64,000 nucleotides of DNA. It comes from Xenorhabdus bovienii SS-2004 (GTDB taxonomy: Bacteria; Pseudomonadota; Gammaproteobacteria; Enterobacterales; Enterobacteriaceae). The stretch lies in NCBI RefSeq assembly GCF_000027225.1, contig NC_013892.1, positions 62,001 to 126,000 on the forward strand. Direction: 5' to 3'. Each line of letters begins with the position of its first letter. The stretch's first letter is position 1. The notes below the pieces were generated by a model. That model was not told the origin of the DNA and ran no database searches. It saw only the letters and a program-made list of their open reading frames with translations. Made by a program: the position numbers and the translations under genes. This document shows positions 49,135 to 56,257 of this stretch, piece after piece.

Positions 49135-49977
49135 ATGTCTAGATTTATTATCAGTCGGAACAACAAGTCTTTACTTAATGAAACCGTATTCTATCTTACG
49201 AAAGGGAATATGCTTACATTAAAGATAGATGGTTTGAATAGTAATACAAAAAGACATCTTAAATTTCAGTCGAATAATACGCTTGTGTCCATTTTTCAAC
49301 GTGATAATTATCTGTTTAGAGAGCAAAGCTTGCAAATAACAGCTCTTAATATGGGAGTAAGCGTGGTTAGAGCGGTGGATACTGATATAGATTACTGTCC
49401 CTATTTTGCAGCAGGTGTCGCTGAGGATTGTTTTCCACCATTAACAATTCATGTCTTATCCAAAATATCGATTCCAACGGACTTAACTGCCGAGCAGAAA
49501 GCGATTTTAATGGTGTTGTTAGCGGAAACGACAACGCCTGAGACACCGGGAATAAAGTATGATGAAAAAAAAGCTAAAGATGTTATGCAATATATGCATG
49601 ATGTTCTATTGAACAGAGTCCGGTCTCCTAAAGCACATGAGCTTGATGTGCCCAGTCAGGGGAATAAATTAATCGGATTAATTTCAGGAGCACGGACAAT
49701 AGAAGGTTTTAGTCAATATCCCAATATTAAATCTGATATAAAAGATAGAATTAACGGTATGATAATAGCTGCGAACGAAGGTAGTAATTCAAATTTTTTA
49801 GCTTATCGACGGTTAATTAAAAATGCTATTGATATAGCCAAAAGTAATAAAATCTCTAATACAGAGATTATTGCATGGAGAACGAAAAGTACTGATTCTC
49901 CTGGCTCAAATTTTATCAAGCTATTTTCATTACAAGGACAAGATTTTTATAAGCTATCTGATAGTTATCTTAAATAA
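49135..49977 (+). CDS. Putative antibacterial effector, possible cell-wall hydrolase
   Basis: 280 residues, no signal peptide or membrane segment. The N-terminal half (1-115) looks beta-rich; after SIPTDLTAEQKAILMVLLAE a helical domain follows. It shows AETTTPETPG and VMQYMHDVLLNRVRSP, recalling the E...NRV pattern of SleB-like or lysozyme-like hydrolases, and a C-terminal SLQGQDFYKL. The gene 10 bp downstream encodes a small exported protein, the arrangement expected of a periplasm-targeted toxin with periplasmic immunity. Delivery route unknown (T6SS is plausible given hcp elsewhere). AT-rich. Enzymatic class is a guess. Confidence 0.5.
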   Translation: MSRFIISRNNKSLLNETVFYLTKGNMLTLKIDGLNSNTKRHLKFQSNNTLVSIFQRDNYLFREQSLQITALNMGVSVVRAVDTDIDYCPYFAAGVAEDCFPPLTIHVLSKISIPTDLTAEQKAILMVLLAETTTPETPGIKYDEKKAKDVMQYMHDVLLNRVRSPKAHELDVPSQGNKLIGLISGARTIEGFSQYPNIKSDIKDRINGMIIAANEGSNSNFLAYRRLIKNAIDIAKSNKISNTEIIAWRTKSTDSPGSNFIKLFSLQGQDFYKLSDSYLK

Positions 49978-49987
49978 GAGATTATAT

Positions 49988-50518
49988 ATGAAATATTTAA
50001 TTGGTCTATGTGTTATTTTTTTCTCTTTAACTGTTTTTTCTAAGCAAGATGAATTGGACTTCAAGGCTTGGGAAAAGAAGGGCAGTTGGGGGATATATAG
50101 TGAAAAACCAAATAGTCATTTTAAGCCGCTAAAAATCAAGAGCTATAAAGAGGGTTATTTGCCTGCATTCAGTTATCTTATTAAGCGGTTTAATTTACAA
50201 AATGTGAATAATCAATACTGTCTGATTGGTTATAAGTGGAATAAAACAAAAAATAGTGATGAGCGTGAAAATATTATTGTTTTTTGGAAAACGGCTAATT
50301 ATCTGATTAATTGGAATTTGCCGGATAGTGAGGACGATGATAGTTATAAAGCCATTATATTCAGCAAACCCTTTATTGATATGAGTGAATCCGTTGTTCC
50401 TTATAAGGAATCAGAAGGTGCGCAGGCTTTATGGGCTAAAGAAGGCGTTATTCAAATGATGAATGATTGTGAATTGAATGGGCAGAAAATCACGATAACA
50501 CCTTCTGGGGTCAGGTAA
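49988..50518 (+). CDS. Putative periplasmic immunity protein
   Basis: 176 residues from the ATG at 49988; the frame is open further upstream but MKYLIGLCVIFFSLTVFSKQ is a clear signal peptide. Mature protein begins DELDFKAWEKKGSWGIYSEK; two cysteines (YCLIGY, MNDCELNG) could form a disulfide. Starts 10 bp after the putative effector stop. A C-terminal copy of this gene is found at 54271-54513, consistent with immunity-gene duplication. No family name recognised. Confidence 0.55.
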   Translation: MKYLIGLCVIFFSLTVFSKQDELDFKAWEKKGSWGIYSEKPNSHFKPLKIKSYKEGYLPAFSYLIKRFNLQNVNNQYCLIGYKWNKTKNSDERENIIVFWKTANYLINWNLPDSEDDDSYKAIIFSKPFIDMSESVVPYKESEGAQALWAKEGVIQMMNDCELNGQKITITPSGVR

Positions 50519-50700: not shown

Positions 50701-51294
50701 CTAAATGAGTATGCCACGCTCGGCATAAAATCGGCCAAAAATATCTACTGACATTTTTACATCAATTTGACTTTGAGTGTTAGCACCAGAAGGATTATGA
50801 AAAGTTATTTCTTCGGGTGTAGCGTTAGTCACCAGTACAAGATGTCCGCCCTTTTTTTCAGGTAATCGTGTTGGCCATCTGATACTAGGATGAACGGAAG
50901 CTATATATAAACTATCTTGGGTAAAAACTTCATGTATCTTTTCGGCCGTCATACCGGTCACTATTTGAGAGATAATCCCAAATTGTTCCGATAACATTGA
51001 AACTACAGGAGCATAAATCATTCCTTTTATATGCTCATCTTCTATCTGGTATGCTCCGTACTCGGTTGCCATTTTAGTTAATTTCAGCAATGGGTAAATT
51101 TTCCCTGAGCGAGCTGCAAGCAACATTTTAAGACAAGCCATACCACAAATATGATTTGCCCATTTTGCATATTCCTCTGGGGAATCTGCACCGGATTGTT
51201 CCCATAGCGGATCATGACTAAGTGGAAGTTGATGGTGAATAATGTCATTGGCTAAATGGAATGATTCCCACTGAGAAAAATAGGGGACTTTCAT
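50701..51294 (-). CDS. C39-like cysteine peptidase domain protein
   Basis: 197 residues of the peptidase_C39-like papain fold. N-terminus MKVPYFSQWESF is typical; the probable nucleophile is Cys50 in HICGMACLKMLLAAR; the histidine is in KKGGHLVLVTNA and the third position in TFHNPSGANT. No signal peptide, so cytoplasmic. Last gene of a four-gene minus-strand operon, overlapping the exporter by 4 bp. Could trim or condense a peptide made by the upstream ligase, or act in transfer rather than hydrolysis; function inferred from context. Confidence 0.7.
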   Translation of the reverse strand: MKVPYFSQWESFHLANDIIHHQLPLSHDPLWEQSGADSPEEYAKWANHICGMACLKMLLAARSGKIYPLLKLTKMATEYGAYQIEDEHIKGMIYAPVVSMLSEQFGIISQIVTGMTAEKIHEVFTQDSLYIASVHPSIRWPTRLPEKKGGHLVLVTNATPEEITFHNPSGANTQSQIDVKMSVDIFGRFYAERGILI

Positions 51295-52145
51295 AGTCTC
51301 TCCATGAACATAAGTAAAATTGCGATAACAGCAACAAAGGAAAATAACATTTGTTCAGAGAGTTTTCCTTCACGATAGACAAGCACTGAAATTAGCATAA
51401 GTAAAGGAATTCTGAGAGTTATTGCTAGATATCCGTAGCTGACAGGTAAATAAGTGGCAATAGCATAGTTAAAAAATAATTCTGGTAAAAACCAGATGAT
51501 TGATATGGAAAGCCAAAATTTCAGTGGAACAAAAGAAAATTTATTTTTCTGATAGAAAAAAATAACAGATATATTCCCTACGCCAGTAAATAATAAATAG
51601 GTAAACCAACCACTCATGGGAATCCCTGTTCGGTCCATAATTGCAAACCCGATTACACAGAATATCATAATGAAAAACATAAGCTTACTTCGTTTGTGCA
51701 TGCTTTTAATATGACCAATCATAGTGAAAAGAATTCCGGCGACAAAAAGAATGTTAATACTGAGGATTGAGGAAAAGGTAAGATTAGAACCAAATATCAG
51801 TATATCAATGAGTGCAATAAACCCAAGAGATATAGGGAATACATAAGTGGCAGATGAAAGGCTTTTGTTGATAAGATTTTGTTGTGCTATCAGCATTATG
51901 CCTAGAAGCACCCCTTTCATCAATCCAGCAGATATCCCTGCTAGGTTAAAGAAATCAGATGGAGTTGAGATGCCCGTGGTTATGGCGACAGGAAGTAGAG
52001 AAAGGCACGTTAAAAACGTGCCAGCGCCAATAATAAAAGCAGTATTCTCCGGAGATACACGTTCTGCAACTTTTTTAAGGGCAAGGGTTCGCAAAGTCGT
52101 TAGTACGGTGATCAACAAAAAAACACCATATTGTGCTATGTTCAA
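51291..52145 (-). CDS. EamA/DMT-family transporter
   Basis: 284 residues with about ten hydrophobic helices in two five-helix halves, the drug/metabolite transporter layout. Near the start is TTLRTLALKKVAERVSPENT; the end (LLMLISVLVYREGKLSEQML) resembles EamA members. Overlaps both neighbours by 4 bp (ATGA type), so stoichiometric co-translation is likely. In context, a likely exporter of the small product of the racemase/ligase pair. Confidence 0.8.
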   Translation of the reverse strand: MNIAQYGVFLLITVLTTLRTLALKKVAERVSPENTAFIIGAGTFLTCLSLLPVAITTGISTPSDFFNLAGISAGLMKGVLLGIMLIAQQNLINKSLSSATYVFPISLGFIALIDILIFGSNLTFSSILSINILFVAGILFTMIGHIKSMHKRSKLMFFIMIFCVIGFAIMDRTGIPMSGWFTYLLFTGVGNISVIFFYQKNKFSFVPLKFWLSISIIWFLPELFFNYAIATYLPVSYGYLAITLRIPLLMLISVLVYREGKLSEQMLFSFVAVIAILLMFMERL

Positions 52146-52873
52146 TTGAGATACCTTAACATAGACGAAGTATTATTATTTTCCGGTGTTAGAGACAATG
52201 CGGCTTCAATGTGAGCATCGATAGAATCAATTATTTTTATTGAATTTTGATACACCCTATCACTGACAACTAAAGGAATTTCTGTACAGCCGAGTATGAC
52301 GGCTTCTGCGCCTAATTCAGCTAATTCATCAATAGCACGATACATTATTCCACGGGATGTGTCAGTGAGTGCATAGCGACATAGATCCTGATAAATAGAA
52401 TCATGTATGATTTGCCGAGTCCTGGATCTAGGTATTAATACGTTTATTCCTTTAGCTTCAAGTCGTTTCTTATAAAAATCACGTTCCATAACATATTGAG
52501 TACCAATTAACCCAACATTGGAAACCTTCATGCTGAGTAATTTATTTGCGGTGGCATCAATAATATTGATAATTGGAATATTAACCAGTTTTGAAAGCCG
52601 ATCGCAAGTATTACTGGTTGTATTAGAACAAATAAGGATTTTTTTTACTTCGGCTTGCGCAAGTTGATGAACTGCTTTGCTGAGAATGTTAAATTCAGTC
52701 TCATTATCATCTCGCTTCTGGGCGGCAAGTATTTTTGAAAAATTAAGGCTGATAATAGCTAGATCGGCAGATTCAAAATCTTTGCCAGTATTCTGCACAG
52801 CCATATTCAAACGTTTATAATATTCCATAGTTGATGCCCAACTGACACCGCCAATTAATCCTATTCTTTCCAT
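52142..52873 (-). CDS. Aspartate/glutamate racemase-family protein
   Basis: 243 residues. Starts MERIGLIGGVSWASTMEYYK, the Asp/Glu racemase (and RacX/YgeA) N-terminus. The two catalytic cysteines are present: Cys82 in KILICSNTTSNT (canonical CNTxH replaced by CSNTTSNT) and the second in VILGCTEIPLVVSD near residue 194. Cofactor-independent racemisation is expected, substrate unknown; the altered first motif may shift specificity towards a non-Asp amino acid. 10 bp after the ligase gene. Confidence 0.85.
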   Translation of the reverse strand: MERIGLIGGVSWASTMEYYKRLNMAVQNTGKDFESADLAIISLNFSKILAAQKRDDNETEFNILSKAVHQLAQAEVKKILICSNTTSNTCDRLSKLVNIPIINIIDATANKLLSMKVSNVGLIGTQYVMERDFYKKRLEAKGINVLIPRSRTRQIIHDSIYQDLCRYALTDTSRGIMYRAIDELAELGAEAVILGCTEIPLVVSDRVYQNSIKIIDSIDAHIEAALSLTPENNNTSSMLRYLN

Positions 52874-52883
52874 TTTTTTACCT

Positions 52884-53981
52884 TTACTCGATAATGTAGT
52901 TAAAAATAGATTTTTTTTCAGAAATGTTTTGTGATGAACATGATAGGTGAATAAACAAGCCAGGTATTGATAATTTGTGTCCTTTTAACATCTTAGGGAA
53001 TATGCTATTTTTCATCATGCCCGGAATTGGATTTGATTCAAGAAAGTATATTTCTTCAGACTCGGTAACAATAAAGTCAAATCGACACATAAATTCATAT
53101 CCAGTAGATTCAAAAATTTTAATAGATAAATCTTTTAGTGTTCTCGTTATCTCTGAATCTTGTATTAAAAGAATTTCTTCTGCTTTATTAATTCGATGCT
53201 TTTCATCATGACCGAAAAAACCATTCTTTGTGATTATTTCGACAACATTGAGTGCTATTGCTTTCCCTTCTATTCGAATGCAACCAACAGAATACTCTTT
53301 TCCTTTGATGAAAGCTTGTACCAAGGCAAATCTATCGTATTCAAAAATATTTTTTAAATTATCCAATATTGATTTTTTTTCATTTTCCAGATTAACATAT
53401 TTATTTGTAAATAAAGAAGCGCCTAATGAATTAGGTTTTATAACTATTTTTTCTTCAGGGAAGTTATCGCTAATCAATGAAAATGCTTTTTCTAGATTAC
53501 CTTCAGTTAAGAGTAATGTTTTCGGTGATCTTAAAGAGGGTAATAAACTATTAATATAGTGTGACATATGGTATTTACTCATAGATAGCGAGGAAGGAAG
53601 TACACTACCAAATGTTCCTTTAATTTTAAAATACTTAGCAACTCCTTGGATATGCCCATCCTCACCTAAATTACCATGAAGAAGATTGATGTGAAATTCG
53701 CTTTGTTTAGACATCCTTTTGATTGCTGTATATAAATCTATTTTATCTCCAGAATGAGTAAAATCATAGGGAGAAATATAAGGTGTATAGGCGTTGTATA
53801 AGACAGAACCATCTTTATCGAAGAAGTATATTGAATTAAGATTTCTATCAAAATTAAGCTCTCTGAAACTTTTTATAAGATTATCAAAAGAACTAACTGA
53901 TGCTGGATGTTCTGGGGAAATTCCACCAAAAATGATCGATAATGGTATAGTTGTTTTTGTATCGCTAGGAAAATAAACCAT
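52884..53981 (-). CDS. D-alanine--D-alanine ligase-like ATP-grasp enzyme
   Basis: 365 residues. Ddl motifs are present but diverged: FGGISPEHPASVSS (18-31; canonical FGGxSxEHxVS), HGNLGEDG (102-109), the ATP-grasp KPNSLGASLF, FIKGKEYSVGCI, and ESNPIPGMM (canonical NTMPGM). First gene of the operon, preceded by GGAAA and a plausible promoter. The housekeeping ddl lies elsewhere in enterics (mur/fts cluster), so this is an accessory ligase. It could form a D-amino-acid dipeptide for export, or alter or protect cell-wall synthesis. Strongly AT-rich, suggesting transfer. Confidence 0.85.
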   Translation of the reverse strand: MVYFPSDTKTTIPLSIIFGGISPEHPASVSSFDNLIKSFRELNFDRNLNSIYFFDKDGSVLYNAYTPYISPYDFTHSGDKIDLYTAIKRMSKQSEFHINLLHGNLGEDGHIQGVAKYFKIKGTFGSVLPSSLSMSKYHMSHYINSLLPSLRSPKTLLLTEGNLEKAFSLISDNFPEEKIVIKPNSLGASLFTNKYVNLENEKKSILDNLKNIFEYDRFALVQAFIKGKEYSVGCIRIEGKAIALNVVEIITKNGFFGHDEKHRINKAEEILLIQDSEITRTLKDLSIKIFESTGYEFMCRFDFIVTESEEIYFLESNPIPGMMKNSIFPKMLKGHKLSIPGLFIHLSCSSQNISEKKSIFNYIIE

Positions 53982-54009: not shown

Positions 54010-54039
54010 AATATAATTCATGCATTGAAATCAATTCAA
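54010..54039 (-). promoter_or_regulatory. Predicted promoter of the ligase operon
   Basis: Minus strand: TTGAAT (54034-54039), 18-bp spacer, TATATT (54010-54015), ending 28 bp before the ligase ATG. Confidence 0.5.
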
Positions 54040-54060
54040 GCATACTATTCATTTCAATGC
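54022..54060. promoter_or_regulatory. Inverted repeat, candidate operator
   Basis: Perfect 10-bp arms GCATTGAAAT / ATTTCAATGC separated by 19 bp, overlapping the -35 box and spacer of the predicted ligase promoter. The geometry suits a dimeric repressor or activator; no regulator gene is adjacent. Confidence 0.5.
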
Positions 54061-54270
54061 AATACCTTTTGGCTATTTATTTTTTTAAAAAAGAAAAAAT
54101 AAAAATAATTATTAATTGTTTCTATAAGTATTTATAGTGGTGAATATTTATAAGATAATATTTTTTATGTTTAATTAATTTCATCCTGATTTTATAAAAG
54201 ATGTTTTTCAGATCGACAACATTAGGCTAGCCTAAATAAACACAGATGATCGTGTTTTGGTAAACTTATT

Positions 54271-54513
54271 AAAACGGCTAATTATCTGATTGATTGGTAT
54301 CTGCCGGATGGTGAGGACGATCATCGTTATAAAGCTATAATATTCAGTAATCCCTTTATTGATATGAGTAAATCTGTTATTCATGATAAAGAGACTGAAG
54401 ATGCTCAGGCTTTATGGACTAAAGAAGTCGTTATTCAAATGATAAATGATTGTGAACTTAATGGGAAAAAAATTACGATAACCCCCTATTTTAAGGGGGT
54501 CGTGGCTTTATAA
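54271..54513 (+). pseudogene. C-terminal remnant of a second immunity gene
   Basis: Without a start, the frame reads KTANYLIDWYLPDGEDDHRY, SNPFIDMSKSV, EDAQALWTKEVVIQMINDCE and GKKITITP. This parallels the last 70 residues of the immunity protein at 49988-50518 codon for codon. The similarity begins abruptly at 54271 (counterpart 50288). Near its end is an ACCCCC/GGGGGT hairpin (54481-54500). Confidence 0.85.
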
Positions 54514-54533: not shown

Positions 54534-55160
54534 CTACTGATTCTGCCACCACCGATATAACCCTTCAATATCTGCTGAAGTGAGCATCTTCATCGCCGCT
54601 TTTAATTGTTCCAGCGGCCAGTTCCACCACTGCATTTCCAGTAACATAGCAATCTGTTCATCTGAAAAGCGTTTTCTGATCACCTTCGCCGGATTGCCAC
54701 CAATAATGGTGTAAGGTTCCACATCCTTGGTGACAAGAGCGCGGGTGCCGATAACTGCCCCATCGCCAATGTTTACGCCGGGCATAATAATCGCTTCGGC
54801 ACCCATCCAGACGTCATTGCCGATAACAGTATCTCCCATCGGTTGGTAGCCATTTTGAGCATCAGCAAAGGCCGGTTCTTCCGACATATAGAAAAACGGA
54901 AAGGATGAAACCCAATCCAAACGATGTCCTTGATTACCTGCCATCATAAAGGCGACTCCAGTGCCGATGGAGCAGAAGCTGCCGATGATCAACTTATCAA
55001 CATCAACCAGATCGGGATGCAGGTAACGGGCGCAGTCATCAAAAGAGTGACCATGATAATAACCGGAATAGTAACTGAAACGGCCGATCTGAATATTCGG
55101 ATTAGTGACTTGTTCCGCTAAGGTTTTGCCCTTAAATGGGCTGTCAAAGTAGTTTTCCAT
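54534..55160 (-). CDS. catB: CatB-type (xenobiotic) acetyltransferase
   Basis: Hexapeptide-repeat acetyltransferase; relatives O-acetylate chloramphenicol. The ATG at 55160 ([20 protein letters not shown]) is the family start; the frame is open further upstream without similarity. 208 residues. Landmarks: [40 protein letters not shown] with the catalytic histidine, [20 protein letters not shown], and [12 protein letters not shown]. Probably an intrinsic resistance gene; substrate range not provable from sequence. Confidence 0.9.
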
Positions 55161-55201
55161 ATAACCCTTGCTGTTATCTGATTCGAATTTGAAAATTATA
55201 A

Positions 55202-55357
55202 TTAGTTTTTCGGTATAAAGTCCTGACTGAATGTCAGCCGTTTTCGTCCCTGTTCCATTTCTGCCAGCGGCTCCACTTCCCGTAAGGTCTTTTTGCAACG
55301 TGTGACGAGATCCTGAGATGGTAACAATTCATTGTAGCTCCAATATAGCCATATCAT
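55202..55357 (-). CDS. Hypothetical 51-residue protein
   Basis: ATG at 55357 behind GGGAGAAAA; reads [18 protein letters not shown] and later [18 protein letters not shown] to a TAA. Composition looks coding, but no family is recognised; it may be a fragment. It lies 41 bp before catB on the same strand. Confidence 0.35.
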
Positions 55358-55461: not shown

Positions 55462-55473
55462 GGAGTTTTGACT

Positions 55474-55767
55474 ATGGCCACATTATCAAATGAAAGAATC
55501 ACCACTAGGGTGAATTCAGAAACTAAAGAGTTGCTTGAAATGGCACTATCATTATCTGGGTATGCGAGTTTGAATAGTTTTATTGCAAATGCTGCTGTAG
55601 CAGAGGCGAAACGACTGATTGAACAAAACATGCGCATCAAATTGTGTCAGGAGGATGCAGTGGCATTTGTGCATGCATTAGAAGAACCTACCCAGATAAA
55701 TGAGCGTTTCCTTCGTGCAGCTCGTAGACATAAGGATTTGTTAGATGAAGATCGAGTGTCTAAATAA
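55474..55767 (+). CDS. DUF1778 (TacA-like) antitoxin
   Basis: 97 residues from the ATG at 55474 with TGGAG upstream (an in-frame TTG two codons earlier is possible). The N-terminal ribbon-helix-helix reads SNERITTRVNSETKELLEMALSLSGY and SLNSFIANAAVAEAKRLIEQ; the C-terminal tail (EEPTQINERFLRAARRHKDLL) wraps the toxin in known TacA structures. It overlaps the GNAT toxin gene by 23 bp. Confidence 0.9.
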   Translation: MATLSNERITTRVNSETKELLEMALSLSGYASLNSFIANAAVAEAKRLIEQNMRIKLCQEDAVAFVHALEEPTQINERFLRAARRHKDLLDEDRVSK

Positions 55768-56257
55768 AAATAAACACGATAGAAATAATTTTGACTGTGG
55801 TGAACCTGCGTTAAACAACTATTTGAAAGCAGTATCAGGGCAGCATGATAAAAAGGACCTATCAAGGACATTTGTCCTGACAAGTAGTCAGAATGAATCT
55901 CAAATAAAGGGGTATTATTCACTAGCGCTGTGCACGGTAGAACTAGACGAAATACCAGAAAAAATATCGAAAAAATACCCTTCCAGTTTGTATTGCGCAC
56001 TTATTGGCCGATTAGCTATAAATAAATTATTTCAACGCCAAGGACTTGGCGAAATTTTGTTGATAGATGCAATTCGAAAATCAATAGAATCGTCAGAATC
56101 CATTCCTACTCCAATGATTATCGTTGACGCTAAGCACGATATTGCTAAAAAATTCTATATAAACATGGGGTTTCAGGAATTTCCAAAAATGAAATTCAGG
56201 CTCTTTATGCCTATGAATGCAGCTGTGAACATTATAGAGCAAATCGACGCGATATAA
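55745..56257 (+). CDS. GNAT-family toxin (TacT-like)
   Basis: 170 residues. TacT-type toxins acetylate the amino group of charged tRNAs and block translation. Signatures: N-terminal FDCGEPALNNYLKAVSGQHDKKDLSRTFVL, LIGRLAINKLFQRQGLGEIL (acetyl-CoA-binding QGLG), and DAKHDIAKKFYINMGFQEFP. Paired with the DUF1778 antitoxin as a type II module. Confidence 0.9.
   Translation: MKIECLNKNKHDRNNFDCGEPALNNYLKAVSGQHDKKDLSRTFVLTSSQNESQIKGYYSLALCTVELDEIPEKISKKYPSSLYCALIGRLAINKLFQRQGLGEILLIDAIRKSIESSESIPTPMIIVDAKHDIAKKFYINMGFQEFPKMKFRLFMPMNAAVNIIEQIDAI

Follow-up and report, generated by a model that had tools for sequence, protein, structure and literature searches.

An operon of four minus-strand genes, lying at positions 50701-53981 of the 64,000-nucleotide stretch of the insect-associated bacterium Xenorhabdus bovienii SS-2004 analyzed here (the window), is the probable source of a small D-amino-acid peptide. 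Its genes encode a diverged Ddl-type ATP-grasp ligase (LIG), a YgeA/RacX-type amino-acid racemase (RAC), a membrane transporter with the DMT-superfamily fold (EAM) and a soluble C39-fold cysteine peptidase (C39). The operon is real, conserved and mobile, and the gene set is a new combination of known enzyme classes. Of greatest interest, and beyond the first-pass annotation of this DNA, is the C39 family with its recurrent pairing with Ddl-type ligases in widely different bacteria.

In the explanation preferred here, to which a probability of roughly 0.4 is given, RAC would act largely in one direction, producing a D-amino acid from the L form; LIG, related to Ddl but with an altered pocket, would link two alpha-amino acids, one or both in the D form, at the expense of ATP, giving a dipeptide other than D-Ala-D-Ala with a free C-terminal carboxylate; EAM would move this product out of the cell; and C39, in the cytosol, would hydrolyze accumulating D,D-dipeptide as self-protection or recycling, a role that would let C39 persist after loss of the biosynthetic genes. 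Horizontal spread of the module would be part of the same explanation. A putative product of the D-amino-acid dipeptide type had been proposed at first pass and is supported by the results below.

The operon and its four products

The open reading frames (ORFs), confirmed in the sequence, are tightly packed in the order LIG (52884-53981, 365 residues), RAC (52142-52873, 243 residues), EAM (51291-52145, 284 residues, TTG start) and C39 (50701-51294, 197 residues). LIG and RAC are separated by a 10-bp gap, and RAC/EAM and EAM/C39 overlap by 4 bp each, so that the ORF coordinates bear out the layout first described. The G+C content is 29.9% in LIG, 34.6% in the operon and 45.0% in the window. The host genome (4.2 Mb) groups with Xenorhabdus, and the operon proteins are 95-99% identical to their counterparts in X. 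bovienii T228. The enzyme classes assigned at first pass also stand, those of ligase and racemase by domain scores and that of the peptidase by predicted fold.

LIG passes both Pfam cut-offs for Ddl domains (Dala_Dala_lig_C, PF07478, 84.4 bits against 24; Dala_Dala_lig_N, PF01820, 40 against 34.6) and stays under the respective cut-offs of the 25 NCBIfam models considered of the 33 that match it, the best being Ddl (158.8 against 310). It is below the van D-Ala-D-Ser and D-Lac ligase models (107.8 against 520 and 68.9 against 550) and far under those of VanC and VanG (87.4 against 650 and 106.6 against 495 bits). In the ligase tree LIG belongs to a starred clade of 22 rows separate from housekeeping Ddl; a housekeeping role for LIG itself is rejected in view of the separate Ddl that the same genome carries. 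The NPIPGM motif, described at first pass as diverged, is present at residues 317-322; it is not peculiar to LIG, NPIPG being the consensus among its own relatives. Eight D-Ala-D-Ala pocket residues are named for the Burkholderia pseudomallei Ddl in one study (PMC6899670), where position 277 is printed both as Asn and as Asp. When these are mapped by motif through the host genome's own Ddl, the B. pseudomallei protein itself standing outside the alignment, five are identical in LIG (K261, R300, N317, G321, S326), two are conservative (F256, I327) and one is changed (Tyr221 to His262).

RAC scores 118.9 bits with Asp_Glu_race and 163.2 with TIGR00035 (cut-off 93.1), and its closest relatives in the PDB are 3ojc and EcL-DER (5ell/5hqt). 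The motif CSNTTSNT begins at residue 82; Ser83 aligns with EcL-DER Thr83, and Ser83 and Cys196 occupy the places of Thr83 and Cys197 of that enzyme. Like EcL-DER/YgeA and RacX, RAC is a TIGR00035 protein with a residue other than Cys at position 83 and the catalytic Cys in GCTE; unlike them, it has Ser where they have Thr or Ala. The motif called altered at first pass is thus present but is no oddity, Ser83 being common to the seven aligned intact racemases encoded directly downstream of a ligase. According to two papers, the usual racemase Cys is replaced by Thr in EcL-DER/YgeA and by Ala in RacX, which is nonetheless bidirectional (PMC12838360), and an unbalanced residue pair of the Thr/Cys type is tied to one-sided catalysis (PMC12661438). 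A Brevibacillus protein (P0171) joins the C-terminal part of a ligase to a racemase part and is apparently a deletion remnant.

EAM is assigned to the DMT superfamily because its predicted fold matches solved transporters of that superfamily; no direction of transport is assigned to it. The Pfam EamA model (PF00892) is not reached (8 bits against 28.2, E 4.4), and a sequence comparison with the PDB gave two matches with E about 0.8, taken as chance. A metallophore reading, in which EamA and a racemase would be compared with opine zincophores, was dropped, the ten scanned window proteins (the operon and six others) including no opine dehydrogenase.

C39 falls just under the cut-off of Pfam C39_2 (PF13529; 23.8 against 24), a model present in 13 of the 120 listed C39 relatives, and matches nothing in the PDB by sequence, whether as a single query or as a profile. 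Its identity as a C39-fold peptidase is settled by the predicted fold, which retains Gln, Cys, His and Asn/Asp; in the alignment Gln8, Cys50 and His151 are conserved in 80 of 80 rows and Asn167 in 79. The protein is single-domain, at 197 residues, and the operon has no ABC transporter, so that C39 is not of the bacteriocin-processing type (PF03412). C39_2 proteins are described as single-domain peptidases in a paper whose main text contains neither 'Ddl' nor 'D-alanine' (PMC10318531). As to the defense role first entertained for the operon, PADLOC returned no match for LIG, RAC or EAM and one weak match for C39, to CARF4 (E 3.5e-4), which was taken as chance. By analogy with phytochelatin synthase and BtrH, which share its fold class, C39 could conceivably be a tailoring enzyme, with the LIG dipeptide serving it as acyl donor for transpeptidation or cyclization, the tailored product being exported; this is judged improbable.

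Spread of the gene set and pairing of C39 with Ddl-type ligases

The window shares its four-gene order with X. bovienii T228 (L032) and with two Pseudomonas genomes (L132, and L033 with a split racemase), so that the set passes a check named in advance by the first-pass annotation, namely conservation elsewhere. Recurrence of the order in another genus, together with homologues elsewhere, is more than chance. Among the best 80 of 460 candidate loci from a ligase profile search, C39 lies within the fetched DNA at eight, all of them among the 15 best (L032-L046); its distance from the ligase is 5.6 kb in L037 and 8.1 kb in L041 and smaller in the rest. The other 65 loci, mostly below 33% identity, have no C39 in the fetched DNA; of these, some of L047-L053 were examined more closely. 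A racemase gene lies directly downstream of LIG in six of the 15 best loci (L032, L033 (split), L035, L037, L044, L045). When the 16 ligase genomes L033-L048 were searched whole, C39 was found in eight, in seven of them within the ligase locus and in G437 beside a Ddl paralog (L136).

C39 is present in 3 of 30 Xenorhabdus genomes (the window's own, X. poinarii, and G020, which by position is apparently the T228 genome), and this, together with low G+C content and relatives in other phyla, supports the horizontal transfer suggested at first pass. In wider samples it occurs in 2 of 369 genomes of the class (the window's own included), 2 of 5 in the family of G415 and, with the center genome included in each, 3 of 398 for Pseudomonas, 8 of 297 for the Mesorhizobium order and, by profile, 43 of 245 for the Streptomyces order. 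X. bovienii database proteins include a second type, 69% (LIG), 70% (EAM) and 73% (C39) identical.

The neighbors of the ligase clade include an MFS transporter and a second ATP-grasp ligase in Legionella and Streptomyces and a MATE transporter in Paraburkholderia, and in Pseudomonas otitidis (L034, 9001-19003) the ligase gene adjoins a non-ribosomal peptide synthetase (NRPS) and a polyketide synthase (PKS) with a sulfotransferase domain. Such neighbors (EAM, MFS or MATE transporters, a second ATP-grasp ligase, PKS/NRPS) favor a small-molecule pathway. On a Sinorhizobium medicae plasmid (NZ_CP140903.1; L025, L113) a ligase-clade gene and C39 are about 50 kb apart, with transposase genes near both.

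C39 is also paired with Ddl-type ligases outside the clade of LIG. All seven fetched Rhizobiales C39 loci (center excluded) adjoin a Ddl paralog, with C39 in two pieces in L152, and the C39 of L136 is likewise next to one; the Rhizobiales paralogs form a starred clade of their own, different from that of LIG, and have an EamA gene (L023) or an AI-2E-type transporter gene (L150) nearby. On plasmids, where 18 of 54 records were read, a ligase or pieces of one lie within about 4-6 kb of C39 in nine (L021, L023, L114, L116 (partial), L155, L156, L157, L158 (pieces), L160); L028, with a 25-bit ligase match in another ORF, was left out of this count. C39-linked ligases make up 26 of the 53 rows of the ligase tree, and their distribution needs at least five label changes over starred branches. 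Such changes could be gains or losses; read most simply, C39 became linked with ligases of the Ddl type on more than one occasion.

Two Agrobacterium plasmids typed conjugative carry GntR/C39/Ddl sets with canonical Ddl motifs, and several genomes have C39 without the other genes. Both observations would suit a cassette in which C39 and a spare Ddl protect against an antibiotic of other producers, either dipeptide-type or Ddl-directed, and which in the window is joined to producer genes; however, RAC and EAM in the window and PALP in Actinobacteria would then go unexplained, and this reading is considered very improbable.

Surroundings of the operon

Upstream of LIG, a possible promoter/operator on the minus strand (54010-54061) combines a candidate sigma-70-like site (54039-54010) with an inverted repeat (54021-54035/54047-54061; arms of 15 nt, 93% complementary, spacer of 11 nt); the promoter scan gave 17 promoter-like sites against 20.2 expected from shuffles, which is chance level. 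The operon lies between the copies of a 215-bp direct repeat (50288-50502 and 54271-54485, 86% identical). The left copy constitutes the 3' portion of plus-strand ORF 49871-50518, and the operon may therefore have been acquired along with copies of this gene, or between them. Two plus-strand ORFs adjoin the operon at 49135-50518; one, of 280 residues, has no match in Pfam, NCBIfam or PADLOC, and a 177-residue stretch of the second has none in PADLOC. On the other side are a CatB-type chloramphenicol acetyltransferase-like gene (54534-55298; NCBIfam 405.6 against a cut-off of 350) and, at 55468-56257, genes for a TacA-like antitoxin and then a GNAT protein, likely a toxin-antitoxin pair. The flank shared with four other Xenorhabdus genomes extends at most about 120 bp beyond yaiI itself, and no empty site was found among them. 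The operon DNA has no match in E. coli genomes, and EAM and LIG, each searched with one query sequence, have no relatives in the viral collection.

Proposed peptide export and possible cell-wall chemistry

Elsewhere the neighbors of C39 (MurF, MurC-like, M15, M55 and D-aminopeptidase proteins) favor cell-wall dipeptide chemistry. Streptomyces plasmids L156, L157 and L160 carry MurC-like, MurF, Ddl, PALP dehydratase and C39 genes together (in L160, MurC-like 322.9 against 335.1 and MurF 410.9 against 288.6), and in L158 PALP and C39 are accompanied by fragments of Ddl and MurF. Among Streptomyces chromosomes, for which 20 of 44 places were fetched (one ending at a contig edge), Ddl and MurF matches stand side by side with C39 in three (L192, L194, L198). 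Arthrobacter and Rhodococcus relatives have the order LIG-PALP-C39-M15, and in G415 C39 directly follows a RodA/FtsW-type gene. D-peptide hydrolase genes nearby, which also speak for the role given to C39 in the preferred explanation, encode M15 (L026, L046), M55 (L155, L038) and D-aminopeptidase (L037) proteins. The arrangements with Mur, PALP or RodA/FtsW-type genes would suit a van-like rewriting of peptidoglycan termini, in which RAC would supply a D-amino acid, LIG would make D-Ala-D-X, C39 would take the place of VanX in removing D-Ala-D-Ala, and the host MurF would install D-Ala-D-X, with EAM perhaps supplying the L-amino acid as one half of a split VanT counterpart. Such rewriting is possible, if somewhat unlikely: the ten scanned window proteins include no Mur, VanRS or M15 protein, the Mur-linked plasmid ligases belong to a different clade from LIG, the genes found beside relatives of LIG are for transporters, PKS/NRPS or second ligases, two loci have both C39 and M15, which are thus not simple substitutes, and the purpose of such rewriting in a Gram-negative bacterium is not evident.

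VanC/VanG-type operons encode a ligase, the VanXY dipeptidase and the membrane serine racemase VanT. Like them, the operon combines the functions of a racemase, a D,D-ligase and a peptidase and has a membrane component next to the racemase; unlike them, it has no M15 dipeptidase, and its racemase and membrane protein are encoded apart and belong to other families. D-cycloserine (DcsG) and bacilysin (BacD) are made by NRPS-independent peptide clusters with ATP-grasp ligases, and these share with the operon ATP-grasp amide formation and a transporter, a likeness already pointed out at first pass. A BacD-like model matches the second Legionella ligase weakly (66.8 against 850); the 25 models considered for LIG do not include it. 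EAM and RAC together may be likened, as an analogy, to VanT, described in one paper as a serine racemase with an attached membrane domain (PMC12423673). The Micromonosporales pdx operon (PALP, Ddl-like, VanX-like) is treated in another paper (PMC8698665), which also reports, from Actinobacteria, rare racemase-Ddl-VanY-like sets; the roles given are predicted only and may include cell-wall remodeling, and 'C39' does not occur in the main text of that paper. The Arthrobacter and Rhodococcus order, and PALP with M15 in L026 and L046, recall pdx; the window, in contrast, has an Asp/Glu-type racemase for PALP, C39 for the VanX-like M15 and an extra DMT-fold transporter, and neither PALP nor M15 occurs in the operon. 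The first-pass statement that no described system has this exact set agrees with the open-licence literature, in which no paper was found, by title or start of abstract, to describe the gene set or C39 with Ddl, an absence that is weak given that scope. Because the neighbor signals are split, export of a peptide and rewriting of peptidoglycan are kept close.

Several observations weigh against the explanation preferred here, for which we infer the substrates, product, transport direction, C39 activity and biological role. The closest fold match of EAM, an exporter in the first-pass annotation, is LicB, a choline importer. In eight of the 16 ligase genomes L033-L048 the whole-genome search found no C39. 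The aligned Rhizobiales Ddl partners keep canonical Ddl motifs, a pattern more in keeping with D-Ala-D-Ala than with a new product, and the MurF and MurC-like neighbors on Streptomyces plasmids point to peptidoglycan. There is no ligase near C39 in L131, L133, L134 and L135 or at nine of the 18 plasmid loci (L022, L027, L028, L112, L113, L115, L153, L154, L159), and 17 of the 20 fetched Streptomyces chromosomal loci lack Ddl and MurF; C39 therefore has a life outside the module. In Pseudomonas, L131 and L132 share flanks (96.0% over 5,991 bp and 93.2% over 3,252 bp), and L131, where C39 is intact, lacks a 3.6-kb segment comprising LIG, RAC and almost the whole of EAM. Between the two C39 genes there are 4 differences in 600 nt, and two neighbors have synonymous divergences (dS) of 0.12 and 0.15; because C39 is far less diverged than these neighbors at the same site, its recent exchange or recombination is likely and may account for this case in place of long retention. 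In X. poinarii (L135) C39 stands alone as an intact ORF (78% identical, nonsynonymous divergence (dN) 0.13, dS 1.6), preceded by about 26 nt of EAM-like sequence; the dN/dS of an orphan C39 does not isolate the period after gene loss. That C39 is intact in L131 and L135, which lack LIG-RAC-EAM, also counts in favor of the persistence proposed above for C39. G427 has a shortened C39 ORF only.

Taken more broadly, and tentatively, this unrecognized family of cytosolic C39-fold proteins may be D,D-dipeptidases, counterparts of the zinc-dependent VanX and a common part of mobile Ddl-type cassettes with interchangeable sources of D-amino acid; the Xenorhabdus/Pseudomonas version would then be a Gram-negative one, whose non-standard D-dipeptide is exported or put into peptidoglycan. 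If this is true, an overlooked cysteine-based hydrolase takes part in D,D-dipeptide metabolism and moves together with Ddl-type ligases in both Proteobacteria and Actinobacteria, having apparently joined them on more than one occasion. This would offer a handle on a class of small, NRPS-independent D-amino-acid peptides, or on editing of peptidoglycan termini outside the known van systems.

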